Source: an uncultured Gemmiger sp. (lineage in GTDB: Bacteria > Bacillota > Clostridia > Oscillospirales > Ruminococcaceae). Taken from it: a stretch of DNA of 35,553 nucleotides. The translations under genes were made by a program, and so were the position numbers. Each line of letters begins with the position of its first letter. The first letter of the stretch is position 1. The stretch spans positions 1 to 35,553 of the forward strand of contig CALXHS010000009.1 in NCBI GenBank assembly GCA_944388165.1, read 5' to 3'. Shown in pieces: positions 7,668 to 11,750 of this stretch. Under the pieces are notes generated by a model, which made no database searches, was not told where the DNA came from, and saw nothing but the letters and a program-made list of their open reading frames with translations.

Positions 7668-8565
7668 TCATTCTGCCGGGTTGAGATGGACCATCACATG
7701 CTTGATGTCCGGGAACTGCCGTTCCAGTTCATTATGCACCCGCCCTGCCACGGCGTGGGCTTCCTGGAGCGTTTTGCTGCCGTCCACCTCGATTTCCAGG
7801 TCCACATACACCTTGCTGCCAAACATGCGGGAATGAAGGGTATCCACACACACAACGTCCTGCTGGGCACTGACAAAGCGCTGCAGTTCCGCTTCGTACT
7901 GTTCCCCGCAGGAGGTATCCAGCATCTTGACCACGGCGTCCTTCAGGATGTCGTATGCCACCTTGAGGATGAACAGACAGATGACCACACTGGCCACCGA
8001 GTCCATCACCGGGAAGCCCAGCATGGCGCCCCCGATACCAATGAGGGAACCGACGGAGGAGAATGCATCCGAACGGTGATGCCAAGCACCCGCCAGGAAC
8101 GCATCGGAACGGATGAGTTTGGCGTAATAGCGGGTGTACCAGTACATGGCCCCCTTGGAGATGATGGACAGCACTGCCGCTGCCAGGGCAATGGCACCCG
8201 GCGGGGTGATGTTGTCGTATTGGCCGGAGAGAACGGTCTCCAGCCCGGCACGGCCCACACCGATGCTTGCCCATAAGCACAATGCCCAGGATGAGGGACG
8301 CCACACATTCCAGCCGTTCGTGGCCGTAAGGGTGGGAGGCATCGGCGGCACGGCGGGACACCTTGACGCCGAACCAGGCGATGAAGGTGGTGAGCACATC
8401 CGAGAAAGAGTGGATGGCGTCGGAAATCATGGCCCCGGAACGGCCCCACACACCGGCCAGCCGTTTGAAGGCCGAAAGCAGGGCGTTGCCGATCAGGCTG
8501 ACCAGGGAAAGGCGGCGGATGACGGCGTTTTCATCCAGGGAACGAGGGGCTGCGCGGTTTGACAT
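7668..8565 (-). pseudogene. cation diffusion facilitator (CzcD-like) gene, split by a +1 frameshift
   Basis: Divalent-metal efflux transporter of the CDF family in two frames. Frame 1 from ATG 8565 (AGGAGG 8 nt upstream) encodes residues 1-98, with the first transport metal site H52-x3-D56 (IHSFSD) and HPYGHERLE. The rest, in another frame ending at 7668, has the second site HHRSD, the last membrane helices and the cytosolic C-terminal dimerisation domain. The join is at the plus-strand CCC run 8270-8272. Removing one C gives ...GIVLMASIGVG... and a single 298-residue protein, the normal CDF length, with no other lesion. It is therefore a very recent mutation, a phase-variable run or a sequencing error. 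The leader has a NiCo riboswitch, which points to Ni/Co or Fe(II) export. Without a frame correction only a truncated, inactive protein would be made. Confidence 0.88.
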
Positions 8566-8583
8566 AAAAGAAACCTCCTGTGG

Positions 8584-8601: not shown

Positions 8602-8658
8602 TGTTGTATTCTCTTATGCGCACTCCCTTTTTTGAGATACGGTTCCGCCGGGAAATAG

Positions 8659-8699
8659 AAAAAGGCACCCGTGGAACATACAACTGTCCCACAGATGCC
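8659..8699 (-). terminator. riboswitch expression platform: intrinsic terminator
   Basis: On the minus strand, arm GGCATCTGTGGGA (8699-8687) pairs over all 13 positions, counting G-U pairs, with TTCCACGGGTGCC (8676-8664), followed by TTTTT (8663-8659). Its 5' arm reuses the 3' strand of aptamer helix P4 and abuts the 3' strand of P1. Aptamer and terminator are therefore mutually exclusive, which predicts an ON switch when metal is bound. Confidence 0.88.
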
Positions 8700-8766
8700 G
8701 TCGTTCACATCTGCTGCCGCTGCCACGGCCCCACGCCCCCTTGCAAGGGCATCGCCTGCTCAGTTT
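8681..8766 (-). promoter_or_regulatory. NiCo (czcD-motif) metal riboswitch aptamer
   Basis: The minus-strand leader shows the czcD/NiCo architecture. P1 is AACTG/CAGTT (8765-8761 with 8686-8682). It is followed by the conserved GAGCAGGC, a P2-like hairpin with a GGGC-rich stem, GGCAGCGGCAGCAGATG, P4 CAGATG/CATCTG (8713-8708 with 8697-8692), and the conserved CTGTGGGACAGTT closing segment. These conserved blocks match my memory of the structurally solved Erysipelotrichaceae NiCo riboswitch. Known members bind Co(II)/Ni(II) cooperatively, and an Fe(II) response has also been reported for the class. They typically control CDF exporters, as here. The class and strand are certain to my reading; which metal is used in vivo is not. 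Confidence 0.92.
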
Positions 8767-8827
8767 GTACTGTTGATCTCGCATCCGTTTTTGGTAAGGA
8801 TGTAATGCAGTGCAAAGAGTTTCTGGT

Positions 8828-8856
8828 ATCATACCATATTCTATGGGCCTTGGCAA
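8828..8856 (-). promoter_or_regulatory. promoter of the riboswitch-CDF transcript
   Basis: TTGCCA (8856-8851), 17-nt spacer, TATGAT (8833-8828). The transcript would start near 8821, with a leader of about 255 nt containing the aptamer and terminator. A 13-bp palindrome TGGTATCATACCA (8824-8836) overlaps the -10. Confidence 0.75.
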
Positions 8857-8862
8857 GAGGAA

Positions 8863-8900
8863 ATTCCGCCTGCCTTGAAAAATTCCGCCTGCCTTGAAAA
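8863..8900. repeat. two perfect tandem copies of a 19-bp unit
   Basis: ATTCCGCCTGCCTTGAAAA occurs at 8863-8881 and 8882-8900. The second copy supplies the -35 (TTGAAA) of the rightward promoter. The first copy carries a duplicate -35 without a -10. Confidence 0.9.
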
Positions 8901-11386: not shown

Positions 11387-11423
11387 AAAAGAAAATCCCG
11401 AACGCTGTCGCGTTCGGGATTTT
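11387..11423 (-). terminator. terminator of tRNA-Leu copy 1
   Basis: 14-bp perfect stem AAAATCCCGAACGC/GCGTTCGGGATTTT (11392-11405 with 11410-11423), then CTTTTAC on the minus strand. It starts at the tRNA CCA end. Confidence 0.9.
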
Positions 11424-11509
11424 GGTGCGGATGAAGGGATTTGAACCCACACTCTTTTAAGGGAACTAGAACCTGAATCTAGCGCGTCTGCCAGTTCCGC
11501 CACATCCGC
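11423..11509 (-). tRNA. tRNA-Leu(CAG), copy 1
   Basis: 87-nt class II tRNA with encoded CCA. Acceptor GCGGATG/CATCCGC, anticodon stem CTAGA/TCTAG with loop TTCAGGT giving anticodon CAG (codon CUG), long variable arm TTCCCTTAAAAGAGT, T-loop GTTCAAATC. It has its own promoter and terminator. Confidence 0.97.
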
Positions 11510-11627: not shown

Positions 11628-11664
11628 AAAAGAAAATCCCGAACGCTGCTGCGTCCGGGATTTT
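11628..11664 (-). terminator. terminator of tRNA-Leu copy 2
   Basis: 14-nt arms (11633-11646 with 11651-11664) with one A-C mismatch, otherwise the same as the terminator of copy 1, followed by CTTTTAC. Confidence 0.85.
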
Positions 11665-11750
11665 GGTGCGGATGAAGGGATTTGAACCCACACTCTTTTA
11701 AGGGAACTAGAACCTGAATCTAGCGCGTCTGCCAGTTCCGCCACATCCGC
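11664..11750 (-). tRNA. tRNA-Leu(CAG), copy 2
   Basis: Identical in sequence to copy 1, 241 bp upstream in transcription order, with encoded CCA and anticodon CAG. The two are separate transcription units, since each has its own consensus promoter and terminator. Confidence 0.97.

Follow-up and report, generated by a model that had tools for sequence, protein, structure and literature searches.

The locus described here raises the question of whether a riboswitch with a good match to its family model, and with promoter, terminator and ribosome binding site all in place, can be assumed to work. It lies on the reverse strand of the window (the whole stretch analyzed, 35,553 bp of contig CALXHS010000009.1 from an uncultured Gemmiger sp., to which all positions refer), and a sequence-only reading had taken it to be a complete regulatory unit in which a NiCo (czcD) riboswitch mediates metal-induced antitermination of a cation diffusion facilitator (CDF) exporter gene.

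The class assignment is borne out by the Rfam covariance model for NiCo (RF02683), which matches positions 8773-8682 (-) with 64.5 bits and an E value of 8.2e-13, against a gathering score of 37; a model built from relatives, with the window excluded, gives 73.1 bits. This is the sole NiCo match in the genome (2.38 Mb searched). The metal-transporter gene expected downstream of such an aptamer is also there, and the proposed gene family is right, as it is a CDF homolog with Cation_efflux and ZT_dimer domains, albeit with a broken reading frame. The features of the unit are collected in Table 1.

Table 1. Features of the NiCo-CDF unit in the window, in the order of transcription
Feature	Position	Strand	Remarks
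Sigma-70-type promoter, TTGCCA-17-TATGAT	8828..8856	(-)	TG ahead of -10; 10/12 matches
5'-terminal leader, CTCTTTGCACTGCAT	8805..8819	(-)	15 nt, outside the Rfam model
Leader hairpin, CATCC...GGATG	8782..8802	(-)	Between the 15-nt leader and the aptamer
NiCo aptamer, degenerate	8682..8773	(-)	P1, P2 and P4 can form, P3 cannot; 64.5 / 73.1 bits
P3 region	8716..8729	(-)	5' strand lost; alternative GCCGU/GCGGC pairing uses the base of helix P2 (minimum-energy fold, weak evidence)
J2/3, GUG for GGG	8724..8726	(-)	GGG in 67/67 relatives
Intrinsic terminator	8664..8699	(-)	15 pairs, loop GTTGTA
T tract, TTTTTCT	8657..8663	(-)	Directly 3' of the terminator stem
GGAAC, complementary to GTTCC of the terminator 3' arm	8642..8646	(-)	Possible post-terminator lock; suggestive only
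GTGCGCATAAGAG, complementary to the 5' leader	8611..8623	(-)	p 0.033, 60 shuffles; suggestive only
Ribosome binding site, AGGAGG	8574..8579	(-)	Precedes ATG 8565
CDF gene, first frame	8272..8565	(-)	ATG 8565; Cation_efflux (PF01545) positions 2-79
CDF gene, remainder, another frame	7668..8264	(-)	Cation_efflux 83-197 and ZT_dimer (PF16916)

For comparison we assembled a set of 80 loci, retrieved by the similarity of their CDF proteins, together with the window. A search model built from 22 relatives, with the window left out (the 22 and the 80 loci have some units in common), matched 68 units, namely 67 of the 80 loci and the window; the remaining 13 CDF loci gave no NiCo match at E 0.01 and none above the Rfam gathering score. 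The loci nearest by CDF protein come from uncultured Gemmiger genomes. Two Gemmiger relatives, G215 (loci L037/L057) and G212 (L038/L058), share leader, aptamer, terminator and gene with the window and, judged by eye, have a similar convergent neighbor.

The expression platform of the window is ordinary for the class. Its intrinsic terminator competes with the aptamer: the stem pairs 8699-8685 with 8678-8664. Three aptamer elements fall within its 5' arm, namely the 3' strand of P4 (8696-8691), both guanines of J4/1 (8690-8689) and, from the 3' strand of P1, two bases (8686-8685). The sharing of the P4 3' strand, near P1, had been seen correctly by the sequence-only reading, although the 13 positions that it counted (8699-8687) stop two pairs short of the full stem. 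Four terminator-like sites are present in the region where shuffles give 1.2, and this stem is the longest of them. A stem starting at the P4 3' strand occurs in all 68 NiCo-CDF units, window included, in a scan that allowed loops of 4-35 and at most one mismatch and fixed the start at that strand, so that the overlap is built in; as a control, shuffling the sequence behind the aptamer gave a score as high as that of the unit's own stem in 0 of 1360 cases. An earlier scan with a free start and loops of 12 or less found the overlapping stem in 44 of the 68 units, while 18 had other stems and 6 had no stem. Thus the switch geometry that had been singled out as exact is laid out as claimed and is the usual one. 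Metal-induced escape from an intrinsic terminator is, moreover, the known NiCo mechanism (PMC7689651, section 5.3.2), and passages of PMC7917058 likewise give it for the class; structure and mechanism are also treated in parts of PMC9294342.

The proposed promoter and ribosome binding site also held up, the former being one of two promoter-like sites in the region where 0.1 were expected. Judging from the distance to the -10 hexamer, transcription would start at about 8821, just upstream of the leader. Four bases upstream of the -35 hexamer there is a perfect 19-base tandem duplication (8861-8898).

It is in the metal-binding core that the window departs from its relatives. J2/3 reads GUG in the window vs GGG in every one of the 67 relatives, and one of the five P3 pairs is kept, where 62 relatives have all five, four have four and one has three; in the 22-relative alignment P3 is paired in 99.1% of cells. 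The four-way junction P1-P4 is therefore incomplete at P3, the other helices being able to form, and of the junction guanines only the J4/1 pair is retained intact. Unlike the window, both G215 and G212 keep GGG and P3, and relative to G215 the aptamer lesion consists of a hairpin that is about 5 bases shorter plus one substitution. In the NiCo structure G46, G47, G87 and G88 coordinate two Co ions and a third site is contacted by G45 (PMC7689651, section 5.3.2); G45-G47 would correspond to the J2/3 GGG here, since both are runs of three conserved guanines. Folded for minimum energy, the window aptamer contains a GCCGU/GCGGC hairpin (8729-8716) that takes up the base of helix P2 and J2/3, but such single-sequence folds are weak evidence, as the canonical four helices are the minimum in only one of three relatives' aptamers (L034). 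In the same kind of folding, equally weak, the terminator fold also wins in the intact G215 RNA.

The second lesion lies in the exporter gene. Its frame changes near 8266 (the codon-frame scan, which is not strand-specific, served only for this break), and the transporter and dimerization domains (PF01545/PF16916), which belong in one frame, are spread over two. Both pieces fall within one open frame in 66 of the 67 relatives, G215 among them; the exception, in G212, has an in-frame stop. This locus (L058, from Gemmiger BRZ_EE bin65, the same unit as L038) carries its stop behind an aptamer with GGG and P3. In another relative, L113, the leader and aptamer start are fused straight to apparent CDF coding sequence (2223-2300), and aptamer, terminator and ribosome site are missing. 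Open reading frame length alone is not a valid test of an intact frame, and we rejected it; the window passes with a 293-aa frame that holds part of the CDF.

Compared with RF02683, then, the window has P1, P2, P4, the J4/1 guanines, the overlapping terminator and a CDF gene downstream, and it differs in the missing P3 5' strand, in GUG for GGG and in a target gene that is out of frame. The class is further marked by cooperative binding of Co/Ni (or Fe) and by read-through that depends on metal, a response that the window RNA is predicted to have lost. The unit is accordingly not the complete one of the sequence-only reading, as P3 is absent, one J2/3 guanine is U and the CDF is split between two frames. 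Nor can the proposed metal-induced antitermination of a CDF exporter be upheld for the window, which lacks P3 as well as a guanine shared by all 67 relatives, and has no one-frame exporter behind the switch.

We lean, by a modest preference, toward the view that the window holds a real NiCo-CDF unit that is being lost in a Gemmiger-like gut bacterium and is predicted to terminate transcription with or without metal. Its RNA is probably no longer a functioning switch but a relic that stays off. The ancestor would have been a NiCo riboswitch in which bound metal allowed RNA polymerase to get through the overlapping terminator. From it the 5' strand of P3 and one putative metal-site guanine would have disappeared, with terminator, promoter and leader remaining. 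With the core broken and the terminator whole, termination is expected at all metal levels, and because the exporter frame is broken, any read-through would not give a whole CDF protein. Covariance scores within the genus support decay, six relatives scoring 81.6-87.4 bits vs 64.5 for the window. In all, NiCo is present in 9 of 35 genus genomes, the other two scoring 45.0 and 40.2.

Tests of selection on the coding pieces bear on how such a loss should be viewed. Between the window pieces and G215 and G212, dN/dS is 0.09-0.17 (0.02-0.05 between G215 and G212 themselves), and the window lies inside the range of the other 28 comparisons among relatives (0.08-0.33), with dS near saturation. We have for this reason withdrawn dN/dS as evidence of decay, and because it gave no support our confidence in decay was lowered slightly. 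Measured against four outgroups, the window and G215 are about equally distant at nonsynonymous sites in the later piece, and the window is slightly more distant in the earlier piece. None of 27 near-invariant columns is changed in the earlier CDF piece, and 3 of 66 are changed in the later piece (L to I, E to G and D to G, the last two radical, which counts in favor of decay); six of the 68 sequences, the window and five others, have at least three such changes in the later piece. Relaxed constraint on the CDF pieces is thus not clearly seen by dN/dS, outgroup distance or near-invariant sites, which implies that the loss is either recent or not real.

The latter possibility is the main rival, namely that the lesions arose in the sequencing or assembly of a draft genome and that the organism itself carries a normal, working NiCo-CDF switch of the kind proposed by the sequence-only reading. 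We regard this as unlikely, though by no means negligible. The species is represented by one assembly (2.38 Mb in 138 contigs, 94% complete, 3.3% contamination), errors would agree with the lack of clear relaxation of selection, and other draft relatives are broken too, by the in-frame stop in L058 and by the loss from aptamer start to gene in L113. Errors would, however, have to account for two separate lesions about 460 bases apart, of which the one in the aptamer combines the shortened hairpin and the substitution relative to G215. Other genes of the contig also speak against errors: when eight chosen ones were compared with NCBIfam, seven matched known families, six of them above a curated cut-off (PolC, IspG, RseP, Dxr, UMP kinase and an RNase R-like protein, the last by a superfamily model only). 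The seventh, a GyrA/ParC-type protein, matches below its cut-offs, and a protein that looks like Spo0A by eye has no NCBIfam match at 1e-10. The window also carries two tRNA-Leu(cag) genes (11423-11509 and 11664-11750, -), about 150 bases apart.

Two other explanations would leave the unit functional. It might be a working variant with a remodelled junction (the GCCGU/GCGGC hairpin) that still binds metal, perhaps with altered specificity, and allows part of the CDF to be made. The retention of P1, P4, terminator, promoter and leader, together with the appearance of the alternative hairpin in the minimum-energy fold, would fit such a variant; we nevertheless think it improbable, as the hairpin consumes the base of helix P2 and J2/3, which is changed in none of the 67 relatives, and the exporter is split regardless. 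Translation of the CDF across the break by programmed frameshifting seems to us very improbable indeed. Each frame is open and conserved on its own side of the break, as frameshifting would demand, yet the CDF is in one frame in 66 of 67 relatives and by eye there is no slippery heptamer at the break, and on these grounds we set it aside.

Whichever reading of the core is taken, the window keeps its leader and the parts beyond the terminator even though its metal core looks broken. The leader is a feature of these units at large, being exact in 60 of the 68 NiCo-CDF units and recognizable in 66. In the 35 genus genomes the 15-mer has 7 sites, which shortly precede the seven NiCo matches scoring at least 64 bits, one site to each match. 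Among 197 family genomes there are 19 copies, 18 of them just upstream of NiCo; the 15-mer read backward, as a control, matched in none of the genomes listed in the family search. Against its generality, the exact 15-mer is missing at 20 of 38 NiCo sites in that search. The single family copy without NiCo (L159 1501-1565, no match up to E 1) is about what chance would give (estimate 0.9). This copy faces a complementary GTGCAAAGGGAG just ahead of an ATG. A role of the leader as DNA operator of a wider regulon is unsupported, the sites being nearly all just upstream of NiCo. The leader is not mentioned in the titles and abstract openings of the literature searched, which do not include the text of the primary NiCo papers.

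The leader may, very tentatively, point to a second regulatory layer, in which leader ACUCUUUGCACUGCAU pairs with GUGC...AAGAG (or GUGCCAUAGAG) past the terminator and a post-terminator lock holds the terminator 3' arm; we consider this possible but doubtful. Only a transcript that has passed the terminator could form such pairings, whose effect might be to expose the start codon or to render read-through irreversible. GTGC followed by GAG within seven bases, which can pair with the leader, lies beyond the terminator in 47 of 66 units. Mean leader duplex energies are -10.5 kcal/mol in 44 units of one terminator type (vs -8.4 for shuffles and -8.6 for the reversed leader) and -11.3 kcal/mol in 22 units of the other (vs -7.3 and -7.9); the shuffles were made with our own routine, and in individual units p is 0.05 or less in only 20 of 66. 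In 34 of 45 units of one type, but in only 8 of 21 of the other, the 3' arm of the terminator forms a better duplex with the post-terminator stretch of its own unit than with those of other units. The region bounds in this comparison are blurred, because ribosome-site parsing found no site in 2 of the 68 units and a wrong one in at least L057 and L058. These leader and terminator-arm pairings are suggestive only. Should the conserved leader be functional, the NiCo expression platform would have to be drawn wider to include it.

The wider meaning of the locus is that a switch may be dead even where the Rfam match is clear and terminator, promoter and ribosome site are present, and that checking the ligand-contact bases and the target frame against relatives alters the verdict. 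If the decay of the unit is real, the window would provide a natural loss-of-function mutant of NiCo for testing what the metal-site guanine and P3 do, and it would show the loss of an exporter unit caught within one genus.
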